A stretch of DNA of 45,634 nt from a virus. The translations under genes were made by a program, and so were the position numbers. Under the pieces are notes generated by a model. It was not told the origin of the DNA, ran no database searches, and saw nothing but the letters and a program-made list of their open reading frames with translations. Where the stretch lies: IMG/VR virus record IMGVR_UViG_3300029266_001356, positions 1 through 45,634 of that record; one strand, 5' to 3'. Position 1 is the stretch's first letter; every line of letters starts with the position of its first letter. Shown here in pieces: positions 2,470 through 43,106 of this stretch.

Positions 2470-4029
2470 ATGGAATACAATCAGCCTAGCGAGATTGTCA
2501 AAGACTTAAACTTTGGCGATGGGGCTAAAAATAGAATAGCAGCTGGCGTAATAAAACTAGCTCAAGCAGTGAAATCAACCCTTGGAGCATCTGGAAAGTG
2601 CGTTATATACGAAGACGCCAGAGGACTTCCGGTCATAACAAAAGACGGTGTAACAGTTGCAGAATCTGTAGTCTTATTTGACCCGGTTGAAAACATGGGA
2701 GCTACTTTAATAAAAGAAGCGGCTAGAAATACAGTGAGAGAAGCAGGTGACGGCACTACTACAGCTACCGTCCTTGCTGAATCGTTGTTGAAAGAAGTTA
2801 ATAGTTGCAATAAAGATGTAACTATAAGAGACATAAAAGAAGGTATTAAATCTGGAGCTAAAAAAGTTAATGATTACCTAGATAAAGTTTCTGTAAAGAT
2901 CGAAGGCGATATGCTGGAATCTGTTAGTTCAATAAGCTGTAATAATGATGCGGAACTAGGAAAGATTATAGCGGAAGCTTATAATAAGGTAGGTAAGGAT
3001 GGTGTGGTAATGATGGAAGAGTCACCAACTGAAGAAACGTATGTTGAGATTGTTGATGGTGTACAGATAGATTCAGGACTCACTTCTGCACACTTTGTTA
3101 CCGATAAAGAAAAACAACTTGTTGATCTTGACAACCCACTAGTATTAATAGTATCTTCAGAAATACCAAACATAAGAAAAATACAAACAGTATTAGAACA
3201 TGTTATAAAGCATAAACGTTCACTACTTATAGTGGCTCCAGTTGATGCACAAGTAAAAGCTGCACTTGTTATGAATAAAGTGAAAGGTAATATCAAAGTG
3301 AATATAGTTGACTTACCAGGCTTTGGTCCTACTAAGAATGATACTGTAGCTGATTTAGCTTTTCTTGTAGGTGCTAGCGTAATCAATGAAGAATTAGGTG
3401 ATGATTTAGATCTTATAGATGTTAGTTGCTTAGGAGAGGCTTATTCAGCAGTAACAGATGATAAGACCACGGTGTTAACTATAGATATTCCAGAAGAAGC
3501 TATGGAAGAAAGAATAGCTATTATTAAGAAAACTATTGGTGAGTGGGATAAAAATCCATTTATACAAAAAAAGCATAGACAAAGATTAGCCATGCTGTCA
3601 GGTTCTGTTGGCGTGGTAAAAGTAGGTGCTGATTCAAAGATAGAGCTCAAAGAAAAGAAAGATAGAATAGAAGATGCTATTTACGCTACTAAAGCTGCTT
3701 TGAAAGAAGGCATTGTTCCAGGCGGTGGAGTTGCGTTACTAAATGCATCTCAAAAAATCTCCGCTAAAGCGGTTGGTGAAGAAATACTAATGAAAGCTCT
3801 TCAAGCTCCTTTTTATACTATATTAGATAATGCCGGTATAACTATGGCCGCTGGTTACGAAGATCACGAAGGTTACGGTATTGATGTTATAACCGGTGAA
3901 AGAGCTACAATGATTTCAGCTGGTATAATAGATCCGGTTTTGGTTACAAAATCGGCGCTTAAAAATGCTGTTAGCGTAGTATCGACAATAATATCTGCAG
4001 ATTGTGTAATTTCAAATATGAGAATGTAA
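2470..4029 (+). CDS. groEL: GroEL-like chaperonin (Cpn60)
   Basis: 519 residues, against about 545 for bacterial GroEL. ATP-dependent barrel chaperonins enclose unfolded proteins. Visible signatures: TLGASGK (38-44; TLGPKGR in E. coli), ITKDGVTVA (56-64), the ATP-loop motif GDGTTTATVLA (93-103), the catalytic region DRIEDAIYAT (398-407) that holds the equivalent of Asp398, and GIVPGGGVALL shortly after. The equatorial, intermediate and apical segments all appear present in order. The C-terminus ends SNMRM and lacks the Gly-Gly-Met tail. The co-chaperonin follows with a TAATG overlap, so the pair is co-translated. Phage GroELs are known in some large and marine phages; here it probably helps fold virion proteins. 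It may be an active ring or partner with host subunits. Confidence 0.95.
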   Translation: MEYNQPSEIVKDLNFGDGAKNRIAAGVIKLAQAVKSTLGASGKCVIYEDARGLPVITKDGVTVAESVVLFDPVENMGATLIKEAARNTVREAGDGTTTATVLAESLLKEVNSCNKDVTIRDIKEGIKSGAKKVNDYLDKVSVKIEGDMLESVSSISCNNDAELGKIIAEAYNKVGKDGVVMMEESPTEETYVEIVDGVQIDSGLTSAHFVTDKEKQLVDLDNPLVLIVSSEIPNIRKIQTVLEHVIKHKRSLLIVAPVDAQVKAALVMNKVKGNIKVNIVDLPGFGPTKNDTVADLAFLVGASVINEELGDDLDLIDVSCLGEAYSAVTDDKTTVLTIDIPEEAMEERIAIIKKTIGEWDKNPFIQKKHRQRLAMLSGSVGVVKVGADSKIELKEKKDRIEDAIYATKAALKEGIVPGGGVALLNASQKISAKAVGEEILMKALQAPFYTILDNAGITMAAGYEDHEGYGIDVITGERATMISAGIIDPVLVTKSALKNAVSVVSTIISADCVISNMRM

Positions 4030-6363: not shown

Positions 6364-6795
6364 ATGGCATTTAAAATGAAAGGCTCCGCTTTTTACGGAC
6401 ACGGAAACGCGGCACCAACGAAACAAAAAGTATCAGGAAAATCTTTAGATAATGATATGGAAGGACCTATAGATAGAAAAAATCTAAAACTTCAAAAAGG
6501 CGAAATGGATGGTACTTATATATTCGGTAGAAACTATGGTGACGAAGGTACTAGTAAGGGTGAGGGCTTTGAACCTACTGGTACTAAAGATCAAAAGTTC
6601 ACGGCTAATGAAAGAATAAATGACTATGAAGAGAGAGCTGGTTTTTTAACTGACAATGATATTCCAGACCTTGAGGGTTCAACTAATCCTAAAGATGTTA
6701 AAAGAAGAAAAACTTTAAAAAAGACAGCAAAAAAACTTGAAGACGAAGCTCAAATAATGAGGGATAGAAGAAAAAACGAAAGAAAATCTAAATAA
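6364..6795 (+). CDS. Charged protein with MAFKMKGS tag
   Basis: 143 residues from the ATG at 6364. The frame is open from 6331, but the MAFKMKGSAFYGHG tag fixes the true start, with an A-rich leader before it. After the tag come a polar Gly/Asp-rich middle and a basic C-terminal helix (about residues 105-143, KDVKRRKTLKKTAKKLED...). No known domain, no membrane segment. The tag is almost the same as that of the 90-residue protein at 1834. Its last base overlaps the holin start codon (TAATG), so translation is coupled. Confidence 0.7.
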   Translation: MAFKMKGSAFYGHGNAAPTKQKVSGKSLDNDMEGPIDRKNLKLQKGEMDGTYIFGRNYGDEGTSKGEGFEPTGTKDQKFTANERINDYEERAGFLTDNDIPDLEGSTNPKDVKRRKTLKKTAKKLEDEAQIMRDRRKNERKSK

Positions 6796-7181
6796 TGTTA
6801 GGTAAACTTTTATCTGGTGGTGCTACTGAACTAATAAAGAGTGTTGGTGGCGTTATAGACAACTTGCATACTTCAAAAGAAGAAAAGTTAGCAGCTGAAC
6901 TTAAAATCAAAGAGATGGTTATGGGTTACGAAGCTGAAATGCAAAAGCAAGTAACGGAGAGATGGAAAATGGATATGCAGTCTGATTCTTGGCTTAGTAA
7001 AAACATAAGACCACTAGTCTTAATATTCTTAGTAGTATCAACAGTGTTGTTAATATTTATTGACGCTGGCATTATTAAGTTTGAGGTTAAATCCTCGTGG
7101 GTAGACTTATTACAATTAGTATTAATAACAGTGATTGGTGCCTACTTCGGTGGACGATCATTAGAAAAAGTAAAAAAATAA
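6795..7181 (+). CDS. Holin, GTA_holin_3TM-like
   Basis: 128 residues. N-terminal GGVIDNLHTSKEEKLAAELK (residues 18-37) forms an amphipathic helix continuing as a coiled coil, then DSWLSKNIRPLVLIFLVV opens a membrane helix (71-93), and WVDLLQLVLITVIGAYFGGR a second (101-120). The W.S.N.RP...(15-20)...GAYFGGRSLEK pattern is that of the holin family PF11351, named for gene-transfer-agent release. Holins make lesions in the inner membrane that time lysis. I see no endolysin in this window, so the lysis enzyme must be elsewhere or unrecognised. TAATG overlap with the upstream tagged gene. Confidence 0.8.
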   Translation: MLGKLLSGGATELIKSVGGVIDNLHTSKEEKLAAELKIKEMVMGYEAEMQKQVTERWKMDMQSDSWLSKNIRPLVLIFLVVSTVLLIFIDAGIIKFEVKSSWVDLLQLVLITVIGAYFGGRSLEKVKK

Positions 7182-8265: not shown

Positions 8266-8467
8266 AATTTCAGTAGGTAAAGACTATAAGAATGACGCCA
8301 TGCACTATGCCGTAGGGCAAGAAGTGTATGGTGGTCATACTATCTGCGATATAATAGAAGAAGACACTAAGTTTTCTATTTATATTAAAAAAAATAAAGA
8401 TGTGTTGCCTTGGAAAGACTTTAACAAGAACATGGCTGTGTCCGTAGAGTACAACTTAGAGTACTAA
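8246..8467 (+). CDS. Hypothetical protein, 73 aa
   Basis: Starts MSKLIRKISVGKDYKNDAM inside the end of the previous gene (20-base overlap) and ends in a TAATG overlap with the next, so it is held in a translationally coupled chain. The sequence suggests a small beta-rich fold (VGQEVYGGHTICDIIEEDTK, FSIYIKKNKDV, AVSVEYNLEY). I recognise no domain. It is just upstream of the packaging genes. Confidence 0.65.
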   Translation: MSKLIRKISVGKDYKNDAMHYAVGQEVYGGHTICDIIEEDTKFSIYIKKNKDVLPWKDFNKNMAVSVEYNLEY

Positions 8468-9078
8468 TGACAAGTGTTCATGATTTTGTCATAGCACCAA
8501 AAGGAGGAAGATACAATAACACTAAAGAGCTTGATGATGGAGAACTAATATTAAATACTGATATATTTAATCATGAGTTTGTTAACAGAGAGGCTACAGT
8601 TGTCTCTACACCTATGGTTGGTCACGCGGATATAATGCGAGGTGATACCATACTAGTACATCACAATGTTTTTAGAAGATGGAATGATGTAAAGGGTATA
8701 GAGAGAAATAGTAGAAGTTTTTTTAATGAGTCTACGTATCTTGTGGCTCCAGATCAAATCTTTTTATACAAAAGAGAAGATGATTGGATTTGTCCTAAGG
8801 GATATTGTTTTGTGGCACCATTAAAAGCTACAGATCAATTTAATGTTGAATCTGAAAAACCTTTACAAGGTATTGTCAAATATTCTGACGGTACCGTGGA
8901 AGTAAATGATCTAGTTGGTTTTAGACCAAGTAGTGAATACGAGTTTATCGTTGATGGCGAGAGACTATATCGAGTTTTATCTAATTTTATTACAATCAAA
9001 TATGAACATCAAGGAAACGAAGAAGAGTATAATCCAAGCTGGGCACAAAGCAGTGGAGGAGCTAATAAAAGTAGCTAA
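8467..9078 (+). CDS. Cpn10-like protein, probably two GroES-type halves
   Basis: 203 residues. The C-terminal part reads LQGIVKYSDGTVEVNDLVGF (133-152) then SEYEFIVDGERLYRVLSNFI (156-175), which follows the GroES plan: G.V.....V..GD.V.F, then E...DGE.Y.V....I. The N-terminal part (about 43-107) repeats it more loosely: VVSTP, IMRGDTILVHHN, then YLVAPDQIFLY. The T4 gp31 co-chaperonin shows that phages do encode diverged Cpn10 proteins. It lies directly upstream of the terminase genes, well away from the true groEL/groES pair. Possible role: a capsid-protein-specific co-chaperonin. The assignment rests on pattern only. Confidence 0.45.
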   Translation: MTSVHDFVIAPKGGRYNNTKELDDGELILNTDIFNHEFVNREATVVSTPMVGHADIMRGDTILVHHNVFRRWNDVKGIERNSRSFFNESTYLVAPDQIFLYKREDDWICPKGYCFVAPLKATDQFNVESEKPLQGIVKYSDGTVEVNDLVGFRPSSEYEFIVDGERLYRVLSNFITIKYEHQGNEEEYNPSWAQSSGGANKSS

Positions 9079-38505: not shown

Positions 38506-39540
38506 ATGGTAAGAATACTAATAATAATACTAATGTTAGCTTGCAACATTACACAAGCTCAAGAGCTAAAAAAACTTTTTAAGTTTTCTACGTTCTATGC
38601 TGCTGTTAACGGTGGTAACTCTATATCTGACGTAGATGTTTTTTCCGTGTCTAACGGGTTAGAGACAGCTACAGTTAAAACTCCTTATGATTATAACATA
38701 TCACTAGGTATACGTAAAATTGCTAGATTTGGTTATGAAAACAAAGCGCAAACTTTTTACGATGGTACTGAGGAGTCTTGGTCGGACGGTGCTAATATAG
38801 GTAAAGTTTCTGGTTTAGAGTTTTTGTTTGAAGTAGATTACAAAAGAGAACAAAACGTAGACTATTTAGACCAACATCATTTTATTAGATATGTTAAAGA
38901 CAATTATGTACTAAAAGGTGAATACCTAGAAGATGGTTTTGCTGATATAAAGTATTTTGAAACATCAGAAAGATATAGATATAAAGTTAATGACAAATTA
39001 TCGTTTAACGCTGGGCTTGCACAAAGATTATCTGAACCTTATGGGTATGATCCTTTAGCAGAGTGGATGTTAAGCAGTGGTAATATACATTACACTTACC
39101 TAGCATTACAACAAGGTTACAATGTTGATGTTGCTGCTAGTGAGTATTTTTCTCCTAACGGAGAGCTCGTTGCTACAAGCAAAGAGGTTTGGGAAGAAGT
39201 TGTTATACCAACAATGTTAGCTGACTATACTGAAAAGAAAAGAAATGAGTTAGAAAAAACTATACAACACTCTTTTGTTGTTGGTTTTGACTACTATAAG
39301 TATACAAAATCTAACTGGATACACACCTGGGCAAGTTTAATGCCTTATCATTACGATGACATTAGTGAGTTTTCGTATCACAACTACGTAGATGGTCAAT
39401 GGTATGATTACTCTGCTGGCTTGATATATGGCGTAAAAGTAAATAAAAGTTTAGGTTACTTTGTAGAGGGAAAATACAATAAGTACTGGAATAGACGCTG
39501 GTACGATTTTAAATTAGGATTAAATTATACAATATTTTAA
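38506..39540 (+). CDS. Exported outer-membrane-barrel-like protein
   Basis: 344 residues. It starts with a signal peptide (MVRILIIILMLACNITQAQE; cleavage probably after ITQA). The mature part is rich in aromatic-flanked alternating strands (FSTFYAAVNGGNSISD, YRYKVNDKLSFNAGLAQRLS, YFVEGKYNKYWNRRWYDFKL) and ends in a terminal Phe, as Gram-negative outer-membrane beta-barrels do. The sequence contains long loops. A phage-encoded barrel could block receptors against other phages, or change host surface properties during infection. It starts 34 bases after the giant gene. I recall similar proteins in uncultured marine phages; function not established. Confidence 0.65.
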   Translation: MVRILIIILMLACNITQAQELKKLFKFSTFYAAVNGGNSISDVDVFSVSNGLETATVKTPYDYNISLGIRKIARFGYENKAQTFYDGTEESWSDGANIGKVSGLEFLFEVDYKREQNVDYLDQHHFIRYVKDNYVLKGEYLEDGFADIKYFETSERYRYKVNDKLSFNAGLAQRLSEPYGYDPLAEWMLSSGNIHYTYLALQQGYNVDVAASEYFSPNGELVATSKEVWEEVVIPTMLADYTEKKRNELEKTIQHSFVVGFDYYKYTKSNWIHTWASLMPYHYDDISEFSYHNYVDGQWYDYSAGLIYGVKVNKSLGYFVEGKYNKYWNRRWYDFKLGLNYTIF

Positions 39541-39541
39541 C

Positions 39542-40036
39542 ATGGCATTCAAACTAAAATCAGGAAACACAAGTTCTTTTAAAAAAATGGGATCGTCCGC
39601 GGCAAAACAAAGAAGAACAGGTAAATTTGTAGTAAAAGATGGTAAAAAAGTTTACCAAGAAAATGAAAAAGGTGATGATGGTTATGGAGGCGAAGGTTTT
39701 ATGCAGCCACCTTACAGGTATCCAGCTGGGCCAACTGAAAAAAGAAAAGGTTACCACGGTTACAAGCCAAAAGAAATAAACTTTAACAAAAAAGTTATGG
39801 TTGATGGTGAAACTAATGAGTTTAATAAAGCTAAAATAAAAGCTAATAAAGAAACATTTGACAAACTAAGCCAAGCAGATAAAGATAAACTACAAAAAGC
39901 TGCGAATGAAAAAAGAGCAAAATTTGAAGCAAGTGATGAATATAAAAAAAGAAAAAAGAATAGTAGTTCACCAGCAGGATTTGTATCAGCTGCGCAGCGA
40001 AAAGCTGTGTGGGCAAGTAAAAACGAAAAGAAGTAA
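39542..40036 (+). CDS. Basic protein with MAFKLK tag and SAAQRKAVWAS motif
   Basis: 164 residues from ATG one base after the barrel gene. It begins MAFKLKSGNTSSFKKMGSSA, a variant of the tag found far upstream at 836-6800. The middle is Lys/Gly-rich; the end contains SPAGFVSAAQRKAVWASKNE, a motif I recall from small basic phage proteins. No membrane segment. It is followed by a TAATG overlap. A basic, tagged protein placed among exported proteins shows the tagged family is spread over the genome and not one local duplication. Confidence 0.7.
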   Translation: MAFKLKSGNTSSFKKMGSSAAKQRRTGKFVVKDGKKVYQENEKGDDGYGGEGFMQPPYRYPAGPTEKRKGYHGYKPKEINFNKKVMVDGETNEFNKAKIKANKETFDKLSQADKDKLQKAANEKRAKFEASDEYKKRKKNSSSPAGFVSAAQRKAVWASKNEKK

Positions 40037-40320
40037 TGGCTAAAGAATTAAACGAAAACACTGGATTTAACGTAAGTATTAAAACTTTAATGGCAATTGG
40101 AGCTGCAATAACGACTGTTGTTGGTATGTGGTTTGCTTTACAAGCTGATATAGCCGAAGCAAAAGAACTTCCAAAAGCTCCTCCGCCAGATGTAAGCCGT
40201 ATGGAATTTGATATGAAAGATCAAAACATTAGGCTGTCTATTGAAAATACAGAAAAAGCAGTAGACGAGTTAAAACAAAGGTTGATTAGAATGGAAGAAA
40301 AAATAGACGACTTGAGATGA
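40036..40320 (+). CDS. Membrane-anchored coiled-coil protein (possible spanin or holin partner)
   Basis: 94 residues: a short polar N-terminus, one membrane segment (about 14-36, SIKTLMAIGAAITTVVGMWF), a proline-rich spacer (LPKAPPPDVSR), then a coiled coil (RMEFDMKDQNIRLSIENTEK and on to the end). One N-terminal anchor with a periplasmic coil is the layout of an inner-membrane spanin; a regulatory holin partner is equally possible. No outer-membrane lipoprotein mate is evident here. Stop/start overlaps bind it to both neighbours (TAATG before, ATGA after). Confidence 0.6.
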   Translation: MAKELNENTGFNVSIKTLMAIGAAITTVVGMWFALQADIAEAKELPKAPPPDVSRMEFDMKDQNIRLSIENTEKAVDELKQRLIRMEEKIDDLR

Positions 40321-40676
40321 AAAAAATTGACACTACTTGGAAGATTTTTGCTGGTTATTTATTAGTATTGTTTTTAATGATATGCAGTTCAGTAGCTAAT
40401 GCTCAGGTAGTAGTAACACATTTTAACGCGGCTTGGAACGATCCAAACAAAGTAGCTTACATAGGTAAATTAACAGATTGTGAGATAGTATATGTAGATA
40501 TAGCTAAATCACCTAAGTTACAAGCTAAACACGAGATAGTTGTAGTGCCTACCGTAGTTATATATAAAGATGGTGAAGAAGTAAAAAGGTTTCAAGCTGA
40601 CATATCGTTTAGCATGAAAGCTACAAGAAAAGAAATGCAGCAAGTGATAGATGAATTATTAATGAGCGACTTTTAA
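40317..40676 (+). CDS. Exported thioredoxin-fold protein lacking the active cysteines
   Basis: 119 residues. A signal peptide (about 1-29, ending SSVANA|Q) is followed by a thioredoxin-like domain: strand VVVTHFNAAW, then NDPNK where thioredoxin has CGPCK, a helix, strand EIVYVDIA, the cis-proline turn VVPTVVIYKDGEEVKRF (Pro78) and a final helix. Both catalytic cysteines are absent (W40-NDPN in place of WCGPC), so it cannot be a dithiol oxidoreductase. An inactive exported fold suggests a binding role, for example partner or inhibitor of a host periplasmic protein. It overlaps the previous gene by four bases. Confidence 0.65.
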   Translation: MKKIDTTWKIFAGYLLVLFLMICSSVANAQVVVTHFNAAWNDPNKVAYIGKLTDCEIVYVDIAKSPKLQAKHEIVVVPTVVIYKDGEEVKRFQADISFSMKATRKEMQQVIDELLMSDF

Positions 40677-40677
40677 A

Positions 40678-41037
40678 ATGGCATACGTACAAGCAAATAA
40701 TCCTTTTCCAGTTACAAGTTGTGGTAGACGTAGGTCTTTCATGCAAGGTGGTAATCCTGGAGACGACAGAACAAAACAAAGTCCTTTTGAGCAGTCAAAC
40801 AAAAGAACAAAAGGTAAAGATAGACATTTTAGAACACCAGAGGAAGGCGCTGGGATGACATCTAAAGGAGTTGCATCTTACAAGGCAGCAAATCCAGGTA
40901 GTAAATTAAAAACAGCTGTTACAGGTAAAGTTAAAGCAGGAAGCAAAGACGCGGGTAGAAGAAAATCATTTTGTGCTAGATCTATAGGATGGAAAGGTGA
41001 AAGAGGTAAAGCCGCTAGGGCAAGATGGAAATGTTAA
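40678..41037 (+). CDS. Basic protein with GRRKSFCAR/ARWKC motif (DUF6321-like)
   Basis: 119 residues, very basic. It starts MAYVQANNPFPVTSCGRRRS and has the conserved-looking tail GMTSKGVASYKAANPGSKLK, then DAGRRKSFCARSIGWKGERG and RARWKC at the very end. The RRKSFCARM.G...R..WNC type of ending recalls the DUF6321 family of phage proteins, function unknown; two cysteines and many arginines suggest metal or nucleic-acid binding. It follows the previous stop by one base and precedes the short MRNAPL gene. Confidence 0.65.
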   Translation: MAYVQANNPFPVTSCGRRRSFMQGGNPGDDRTKQSPFEQSNKRTKGKDRHFRTPEEGAGMTSKGVASYKAANPGSKLKTAVTGKVKAGSKDAGRRKSFCARSIGWKGERGKAARARWKC

Positions 41038-41055
41038 CAAATAAATATATATAAA

Positions 41056-41220
41056 ATGAGAAATGCACCACTAAAAGGATTAATGAAAAAAGCTTCGCCA
41101 ATGATGTTTAAAGGAGCCGACTCTTCAAACTCCTCATGCTGGAAGGGATACAAAAAAGTAGGAACAAAAAAATCTCCAAGCGGAACTGGAAAAACAGTTA
41201 ACGACTGTAAAAAAATATAA
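41056..41220 (+). CDS. 54-aa protein of the MRNA[SP]L family
   Basis: Too short for usual ORF calling but well supported: ATG at 41056, stop overlapping the next start (TAATG at 41218-41222), and an N-terminus MRNAPLKGLMKKASPMMFKG matching the protein at 836 (MRNASLPGLIKK). It then has a CWKGYKK motif, parallel to CSVDGYKR there. Contains SPMMF, like the tag core of the MAFK proteins. Basic, no membrane segment. Function unknown. Confidence 0.7.
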   Translation: MRNAPLKGLMKKASPMMFKGADSSNSSCWKGYKKVGTKKSPSGTGKTVNDCKKI

Positions 41221-43106
41221 TGAAAAAACTACTACTACTTGTATTATTAATACCAAATCTATTACTAGCTCAGTATTGCACTGACGCTTTTGTGTTGGTA
41301 AATCTAGATCAATATCCAAGTGAAACATCTTGGCAAATAGCAGATACAAATGGTGCTGTGTTGTTTTCAGGCGGTCCTTATACTGGCCAACCTTTTTACT
41401 CACCACAAACAACTATGATGTGTTTACCTCATGGTTATTTAGAATTTACTATATTCGATCAATATGGTGATGGTTTAGCTGGTAGTTTATGGGGTGGGCA
41501 AGACGGATCATACTACGTGGTGCAATGTGGAGATACTTTAGTTTATGGTGATACAGCAAACTTTGGGTACGATTCCGCCCACGTATTTATATCCGCTCCA
41601 TGTCCCCCGCCTCCAGTTATTCTTGGTTGTATGGATAGCTTATACTTTGAGTACATGCCTAACGCTACTTTAGACGATGGAAGTTGTTTAAACTTAGTAG
41701 TAGTAGGTTGTTTAGATACAAATGCTTTTAACTATGATCCATTAGCTAACGTTATGGATTTTATTGATAGCTGTACATTTGATTTATACTTACATGACTT
41801 AGTAGGTAACGGTTGGGTTGGAAGTAGATTAGAAATATACCAAGGTAGCGACACATCTGTATTTTTTATGACAAACAATGGTGCTAGTCAATTGTTTAAT
41901 ATAGATCTAGCTTCGCCTGAAGATGTTAGTGCAAGATTTTTTATAAACCAACAAGCTTTTAACACGTTGGTTGAGTGTGGTTTTACTTTATTGAACCCGT
42001 TTGGAGATACAGTTATGAGTGTTGTACCTCCTTTTATTTTACCGTTTATTAATTATGAAGGAACTACATATTGCGGCAATGAATGTATAGATGTTGTTGA
42101 AGGCTGTATGGACAGTTTAGCTTTTAATTACATGGACACGGCTAATACAAATGATTTTTGCTATTACAATCCAGGTTGTACTAGTCCAGCTTATTTAGCT
42201 TACCACGTGGATACTGCAATGGGAATAGTTAGAGATTACAATAATCAAGACAGTTGTTTAATAGGTGGTTTAGCTGTTTTTGGTTGTACAGATTTTTTAG
42301 CTTACAACTACAATCCGATAGCAAATGTTAATGTTGGTTGTTTACCATTTATTTATGGTTGTATGGATGTAACTATGTACAACTACGATCCGCTTGCTAC
42401 GGCGCCTGACACTTGCGTGCCTTTTGTTTATGGTTGTACTGATCCTTTAGCATTTAATTATGATCCACTTGCAAACAGTGATAACGGTAGTTGCACTGCG
42501 TTCGTATACGGTTGTACAGACAGTACAGCTTTTAACTATAACCCACTAGCCAATGCTGATAACTCTTCTTGTGTTGCTTTTATATACGGTTGCACGGACC
42601 CTTCTGCTCTTAACTATTCCCCGTCAGCAAACACGGAAGACTTTAGTTGTATTGCTTATGTTTATGGGTGTATGGATAGTTTGGCTCTTAACTACGATCC
42701 ACTGGCTAACACGGATAACGGTGCGTGTATTTCTATCGTTATGGGTTGCATGGATCAAACAGCGTATAACTTTAATGCAAATGCTAACACTGACAATCCT
42801 ATATCTTGTCGTTATAGCGCAGGTTGTATTACTGGTGATAGCATTCCTTACTGGTTAAACGATCCTTGCTACGCTTGGGTTATAGATATAGATAACTATT
42901 GTTGTGATAACGAGTGGGACGAAATATGTCAAGCAACATACGATTATTGTGAAGGTACTTGGGTTGGACCATTACCAAGAAGAATAGCTAACTTACTAAG
43001 AATAACAGATCTACTAGGTAGACCTGCTAAAATGAATACAAATCAATTACTGTTTTTCATATACGATGACGGAACAGTAGAAAAGAAAATATTAAAAAAA
43101 CAATAA
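41220..43106 (+). CDS. Secreted cysteine-repeat surface protein with T9SS-like C-terminus
   Basis: 628 residues. A signal peptide (MKKLLLLVLLIPNLLLA|Q, 1-17) is followed by ten repeats of the GC[MT]D..AFNY.P.AN...G.C type (136-156, 163-185, 295-314, 355-374, 380-399, 405-425, 430-451, 457-477, 483-503, 509-530), familiar from secreted Flavobacteriia proteins. A cysteine-rich block (CYAWVIDIDNYCCDNEWDEIC, split at 550-570) precedes the tail. The end, RRIANLLRITDLLGRPAK (587-604) and FFIYDDGTVEKKILKK, resembles T9SS sorting domains or host-protein ends with GR and YDDGTVEKK. It would be exported and surface-anchored in a Bacteroidetes host. Possible roles: superinfection exclusion or adhesion. 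It is unusual in a phage and supports the host assignment. Confidence 0.75.
   Translation: MKKLLLLVLLIPNLLLAQYCTDAFVLVNLDQYPSETSWQIADTNGAVLFSGGPYTGQPFYSPQTTMMCLPHGYLEFTIFDQYGDGLAGSLWGGQDGSYYVVQCGDTLVYGDTANFGYDSAHVFISAPCPPPPVILGCMDSLYFEYMPNATLDDGSCLNLVVVGCLDTNAFNYDPLANVMDFIDSCTFDLYLHDLVGNGWVGSRLEIYQGSDTSVFFMTNNGASQLFNIDLASPEDVSARFFINQQAFNTLVECGFTLLNPFGDTVMSVVPPFILPFINYEGTTYCGNECIDVVEGCMDSLAFNYMDTANTNDFCYYNPGCTSPAYLAYHVDTAMGIVRDYNNQDSCLIGGLAVFGCTDFLAYNYNPIANVNVGCLPFIYGCMDVTMYNYDPLATAPDTCVPFVYGCTDPLAFNYDPLANSDNGSCTAFVYGCTDSTAFNYNPLANADNSSCVAFIYGCTDPSALNYSPSANTEDFSCIAYVYGCMDSLALNYDPLANTDNGACISIVMGCMDQTAYNFNANANTDNPISCRYSAGCITGDSIPYWLNDPCYAWVIDIDNYCCDNEWDEICQATYDYCEGTWVGPLPRRIANLLRITDLLGRPAKMNTNQLLFFIYDDGTVEKKILKKQ
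41625..42809 (+). repeat. Ten GC[MT]D..AFNY repeats
   Basis: Ten cysteine-bounded repeats of about 20-23 residues; the last seven are nearly tandem with a spacing of about 25 residues. Each has a cysteine at each end, so each could close its own disulphide loop, and several have D/N-rich loops that could bind calcium. DNA identity between units is moderate, so divergence rather than recent slippage is indicated. Confidence 0.85.

Follow-up and report, generated by a model that had tools for sequence, protein, structure and literature searches.

Positions 38506-43106 of the viral record IMGVR_UViG_3300029266_001356, a linear virus record of 45,634 bases analysed here in full (the window), hold seven closely spaced open reading frames (ORFs), all on the plus strand, and four of these form a gene module that recurs in many uncultured marine phages (Table 1). 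They encode an exported outer-membrane beta-barrel (B), a small protein with one membrane span (T), an exported thioredoxin fold that has lost its catalytic cysteines (X) and an exported cysteine-repeat protein (C), which is probably a cargo of the host type IX secretion system (T9SS). Its probable effect is a change of the host cell surface at a late stage of infection. The complete proposal, that B, T, X and C are an envelope module for late surface remodelling against re-adsorption, with C delivered by the T9SS, is our leading reading, at a little below an even chance. A first-pass annotation of the same DNA had described B, X and C, at the right place, as a three-gene envelope-remodelling module, perhaps for superinfection exclusion or lysis. 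That idea fits the evidence, but the set is larger: the fourth partner T was overlooked, together with three small genes (g2, g5 and g6) and the C-terminal sorting domain of C.

The linkage of the four genes was examined in IMG/VR, where relatives were found in at least 598 stretches with a B search and at least 580 with an X search; 80 loci anchored on B and 80 anchored on X were compared (loci are numbered L). In the B-anchored loci of sufficient length, T follows in 68/68, X in 62/62 and C in 40/40. T is present in all 80 X-anchored loci and, where at least 4.4 kb was available on both sides (45 loci, taking the first X hit per locus and score thresholds set by the analyst), B was found in 45, T in 45 and C in 44. 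The first-pass annotation had proposed looking for co-occurrence in related phages, and it is indeed seen there, beyond one lineage. The two sets have 25 contigs in common (by eye) and one lineage dominates the B set, so the samples are not independent events. All loci were anchored on B, X or C, a design that would miss related phages without the module; searches with two other window genes, aimed at sampling phages independently of it, returned no relatives. Plain chance as the cause of the clustering was rejected, because linkage and conservation are too regular.

Gene order among the 45 loci is B-T-X-C in 32, T-X-C-B in eight and C-B-T-X in two, with a second C in two further loci and T-X-B, without C, in L216, the sole X-anchored exception. 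Rotating a single gene ring yields all three main orders. T lies ahead of X throughout, and small genes separate the two at some loci. Two contigs in bacterial genome bins have the orders C-B-T-X (L094) and T-X-C-B (L093). L030 carries B twice on the same contig (7989-9086 and 13723-14796), ahead of T and immediately behind C, and looks as if two module orders had been combined. A piece of the module (the end of C, then B, T and X) is also found under the archaeal bin name Candidatus Nitrosopelagicus (L095, contig CALBOT010000064.1), probably through mis-binning of a phage contig.

The module is found in phages of different types. The terminase reaches 78% identity or more to that of the window in 73 of the 80 B-anchored records, is distant in three (23-25%; L024, L048 and L078) and is missing from four, and the B proteins of the three distant records are still 71-77% identical to window B. 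In 28 chosen records of the 80 anchored on X, the terminase was close in three (80-89%), at 41% in one, at 23-26% in six and missing from 18; seven of these 18 are 87-158 kb long, and several of the long ones carry putative ribonucleotide reductase genes, as read from the sequence. A missing terminase proves nothing alone, because records can be fragments. To judge from these comparisons, the module moves between phages. Acquisition of the whole block from a host was considered and is unsupported: the B profile matches 1/196 Flavobacteriales genomes, on a phage-like contig with the whole module next to an endolysin-like gene, and X finds matches in these genomes only at the level of ordinary thioredoxins (best 1.7e-7, the module-bearing contig excepted).

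The window terminase shares 64% identity with its counterpart in the uncultured podovirus MW202828 and, among the matches listed, 31-47% with terminases from phages of Flavobacterium, Cellulophaga and Tenacibaculum. The gene order of the Elemovirus record NC_055852 is similar to that of the window from the terminase to the giant last gene. In the late blocks of NC_055852 and NC_021794 the last annotated gene is the giant structural gene, while in the window the module is placed after the giant gene (2541 residues), with a gap of 34 bases; the giant genes of the three appear to correspond in size and position. Profiles of B, T, X and C found nothing in NC_055852, NC_021794 or MW202828 (50,000 of its 60,850 bases). 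The hosts of these uncultured marine viruses are probably Flavobacteria-like bacteria, as the sorting domain of C and the phage relatives suggest.

An AlphaFold2 model of B is a beta-barrel (mean predicted local distance difference test, pLDDT, 75.7), and its best 50 Foldseek matches in the PDB are outer-membrane beta-barrel proteins throughout, in agreement with the barrel-like character assigned to it by the first-pass annotation. A second structural comparison ranked Tsx first (Z 13.4, root-mean-square deviation (rmsd) 3.7, 190 residues aligned); PorV, SprF and Lom were absent among its best 50 matches, which excludes nothing. The closed barrel of the model and a signal peptide (pattern rule) are the two features expected of an outer-membrane beta-barrel. 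In the Foldseek viral library B has one strong match, the unnamed protein A0A516LKJ4 (E-value 3.5e-20), and tblastn with the B proteins of the window and of L094 against 50,697 phage records gave nothing at E up to 0.1.

C adjoins B in two of the three gene orders, and in L093 the two overlap by start and stop codon. Partner barrels serve some T9SS adhesins, and B, T and X could be dedicated partners that load or anchor C, whose purpose would then be a separate matter. T9SS type A cargos are not known to need a dedicated barrel, and this argues against such a secretion helper, as do the retention of B, T and X without C in L216 and a sequence search in which window B matched no Pfam family, PorP/SprF included, at E up to 1. 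We consider this explanation unlikely.

X matches the Thioredoxin family PF00085 narrowly (23.8 bits, cut-off 23.5), and 73/75 of its relatives also match Thioredoxin at E up to 0.01. The usual thioredoxin active-site motif is WCGPCK, and the corresponding stretch of window X reads WNDPNK. Asn-x-x-Asn replaces Cys-x-x-Cys in 75/75 aligned copies and in 80/80 of a second sample, and the presumed cis-proline is conserved in 75/75, so that the inactive exported thioredoxin fold of the first-pass annotation is borne out across the family. A catalytic role of X in the periplasm, as a thioredoxin or a Dsb-type helper of the cysteine-rich C, was rejected, because neither catalytic position holds a cysteine. 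L017 in addition encodes an Omp28-like protein with CxxC (E 7.7e-8, under the Pfam cut-off), which suggests that some phages hold both dead and possibly active exported thioredoxin-like proteins.

T reads as a single membrane span plus a coiled coil; its best family is phrog_1009, to which PHROG assigns no function. From its sequence, T probably lies in the inner membrane with the coiled coil toward the periplasm. The T and X genes share four bases in the window, and this overlap is frequent across loci. Two-component spanins have a membrane anchor with a coiled coil and an overlapping neighbour gene, and T, as read from its sequence, would resemble them in this. The module could thus help to lyse the outer envelope, with T as an inner-membrane spanin, X as a periplasmic bridge, B destabilising the outer membrane and C as a passenger, and the genes after X would suit this in some lineages: an M15 peptidase and a holin in L089, and an endolysin-like gene in L091 and L094. 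However, the partner in a spanin pair is an outer-membrane lipoprotein, whereas X, an exported thioredoxin fold, is soluble and lacks a lipobox (0/72, pattern rule), and the module adds a barrel and a surface protein, the latter unnecessary for lysis. The window phage has its holin gene (6795-7181, phrog_3427, E 2.4e-31) ahead of the terminase, some 33 kb from the module, and this counts against the module as the main lysis cassette. A helper of lysis is therefore an improbable role, even if it is the nearest competitor of surface remodelling.

Signal peptides were called by a pattern rule on the barrel-anchored set and were found in 82/82 B, 70/72 X and 56/57 C proteins, including window C; none was found in T (0/74) or in the other window genes (0/34). 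The signal peptides that the first-pass annotation had given to all three proteins thus set them apart from the rest of the window. The final rule was written after a looser first one, which did worse on both sides (79/82 B, 64/72 X and 39/57 C proteins, with 1/34 other window genes and 61/74 T proteins). Of 43 closed C proteins one was missed, that of L013: its frame stops before the sorting domain; the remainder lies in another frame and was left unjoined.

The C proteins consist of a signal peptide, cysteine-rich repeats and a C-terminal domain, and differ in length and repeat number, whereas B, T and X are conserved. Window C has nine copies of the repeat motif, in line with its first description as a secreted cysteine-repeat protein. 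The AlphaFold2 model of C is poor (pLDDT 55.6), and its best fold match, a CBM60-like one over residues 185-284, is borderline (Z 7.3, rmsd 2.8, 88 residues aligned). This match, the MAM domains of 5/44 C proteins and the presence of C-type repeats in 60/99 Flavobacteriales genomes would be consistent with an ecological role, in which C makes infected cells stick to particles, cells or glycans and so aids spread rather than exclusion. Under a lytic late operon there would be little time for such a gain, and a Z of 7.3 falls within the range of chance arrangements; we regard this role, too, as improbable.

Repeats like those of C also occur in a protein of Synechococcus phage S-CAM3 annotated as a virion structural protein. 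A protein of 1527 residues in L048 (1429-6012), near tail-fibre-like genes, has the same kind of cysteine repeats and no signal peptide that we could see, which suggests that the repeat may serve tail as well as surface proteins. The block itself lies, as first described, between virion genes, with the giant gene on one side and small virion- or tail-like genes on the other. C, perhaps with B and X, might on these grounds be part of the particle, for example as tail decorations, but with their signal peptides and a C-terminal sorting domain the proteins would leave the cytoplasm, where particles are assembled, and a virion role seems very unlikely.

The evidence for T9SS export lies at the C-terminus of C. 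Curated T9SS type A domains were recognised in part of the family, TIGR04183 in 8/44 full-length C proteins (best 1.5e-10) and PF18962 likewise in 8/44 (best 7.9e-12), the other 36 being without a match. L039, L048 and the first hit of L078 (proteins without the cargo layout) and L001, which is the window, were left out of the C counts, and the tally of C ends also omits L082, L083, L084 and L088 as duplicates of contigs in the count. In this tally, 37 proteins end in a short domain termed form 2 and 13 do not, 12 of these being type-A-like by eye and one an early-ending frame. Form 2 and type A ends start at the same junction in the phage proteins, as expected if the two can replace each other. 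A form 2 profile, built from 30 sequences, matches 23/60 Flavobacteriales genomes, with up to 49 matches per genome; in 22/22 distinct cellular proteins sampled from two genomes the domain lies 1-3 residues from the stop. SprA is present in 23/23 genomes with form 2, and form 2 occurs in 0/8 genomes without SprA. NCBIfam and Pfam scans did not recognise form 2 in the phage proteins. With its signal peptide and C-terminal sorting domain, window C is therefore probably a phage-encoded T9SS cargo, although transport is read from the sequence. Form 2 itself looks like a common C-terminal sorting domain in some Flavobacteriales (cellular loci L120-L139).

In summary, four proteins that appear to be destined for the inner membrane, periplasm, outer membrane and surface are kept together despite changing phage type, order and neighbours, which is best explained by one envelope module. 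In the mechanism that we favour, B, T, X and C would be read late, within the structural operon, as their position suggests. B would sit in the outer membrane, X free in the periplasm and T anchored in the inner membrane, and the three may assemble into a conserved trans-envelope scaffold, with the cysteine-free active-site face of X as a docking surface rather than an enzyme. C would be the variable, exposed component, taken by Sec into the periplasm and then, by means of its C-terminal domain, to the cell surface by the host T9SS. The likeliest benefit would be that the dying cell and its debris stop binding progeny or competing phages. Remodelling against re-adsorption is ranked first because the nearest precedents are receptor-inactivating phage proteins and the Cryophage T9SS cargos, and the tail-fibre-like genes near the module in several lineages (in L048, a tail-fibre match two genes ahead of B) count in its favour. 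Several observations weigh against it. Window C matches neither TIGR04183 nor PF18962 at E up to 0.1, form 2 is missing from 29/52 SprA-bearing genomes, and the similarity between form 2 and the cellular type A profile is weak (17.9, probability 11%; 60 column shuffles reached at most 14.7). L216 does without C, and the endolysin or holin adjoining the module in some lineages would suit lysis too. Surface remodelling nevertheless stands first in our ranking, followed by the lysis helper, the ecological surface role, the secretion helper and, last, the virion role. That T, X and a phage-only B form a trans-envelope machine, which acts with T9SS-exported C and travels between unrelated marine phages as a single cassette, is a proposal that we consider doubtful.

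Llp of T5 and Lom of lambda are phage-encoded envelope proteins, and Lom is an outer-membrane protein whose gene lies in a late operon, close to the tail genes. A further phage-encoded envelope protein, Cor (phi80 and N15), inactivates a receptor (accessible part of PMC11436027). Likened to the module by description, Cor, Llp and Lom differ from it in being single proteins of Enterobacteria phages without a T9SS route. Single phage T9SS cargos are already known from Cryophage, whose genes, like C, carry T9SS type A sorting domains, and the Cryophage authors likewise bring up superinfection exclusion and remark that cargos vary; the cargos differ from C, since they belong to a single phage type and comprise an endoglucanase, a glycoside hydrolase and a PA14 protein, and the accessible text describes no barrel, pseudo-thioredoxin or coiled-coil partner (PMC7468147). 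The crAss-like phages, which infect Bacteroidota, resemble the module in having T9SS sorting domains near head genes, in proteins encoded close to BACON genes, and differ in having BACON domains rather than cysteine repeats, with no four-gene module in the accessible part of the source (PMC6949934). No description of the four-gene module was found in the literature searched, outside which most subscription journals lie.

The remaining genes around the module are variable. In the B-anchored loci, g5 lies after B in 28/59; g2 has no match in Pfam or PHROG searches. Some loci carry extra exported proteins near the core, lipoprotein-like ones of 182-186 residues and others of 166-172, and L055 has a PAP2-like protein (E 3.1e-5, under the cut-off). 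A third short C-terminal motif ends further exported genes next to the module (L017:10096-11100, L034:10002-11036, L040:9688-10197 and L048:10247-10765), the L017 gene among them encoding the Omp28-like protein. Elsewhere in the window lie a GroEL-like gene (2470-4029; PF00118, E 9.3e-54) and a GroES-like gene (8467-9078; phrog_13932, E 4.3e-15); GroEL has been reported from a group of putative Flavobacteriaceae phages (accessible part of PMC5332604).

Table 1. Genes and sequence features at the module locus of the window.
Feature	Position	Strand	Basis
B, exported outer-membrane beta-barrel, 344 residues, phage-only family	38506-39540	+	AlphaFold2, Foldseek, signal-peptide pattern rule
g2, basic protein, 164 residues, variable neighbour, probably outside the core	39542-40036	+	After B in 0/74 other loci
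T, small protein with one membrane span and coiled coil, 94 residues	40036-40320	+	Read from sequence; phrog_1009
X, exported thioredoxin fold without catalytic cysteines, 119 residues	40317-40676	+	PF00085; alignment of relatives
Trp-Asn-Asp-Pro-Asn replacing the thioredoxin active-site loop	40434-40448	+	Asn at both former Cys positions
g5, basic DUF6321 protein, 119 residues, variable neighbour	40678-41037	+	PF19846, E 1.1e-10
g6, small basic protein, 54 residues, variable neighbour	41056-41220	+	phrog_4359, E 7.3e-6
C, exported cysteine-repeat protein, 628 residues, probable T9SS cargo	41220-43106	+	Repeats, signal peptide, sorting domain
C-terminal 54 residues of C, short form 2 sorting domain	42942-43103	+	Form 2 profile

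The use of the T9SS by phages, so far a matter of isolated cases, appears here as a regular part of a module common to many uncultured marine phages. The module offers a direct way to study a dead thioredoxin that is conserved, and draws attention to a short C-terminal sorting domain, common in Flavobacteriales, which both family libraries missed in these phage proteins. If true, the surface role would reveal how the envelope of marine Flavobacteria-like hosts is redesigned by their phages ahead of lysis.

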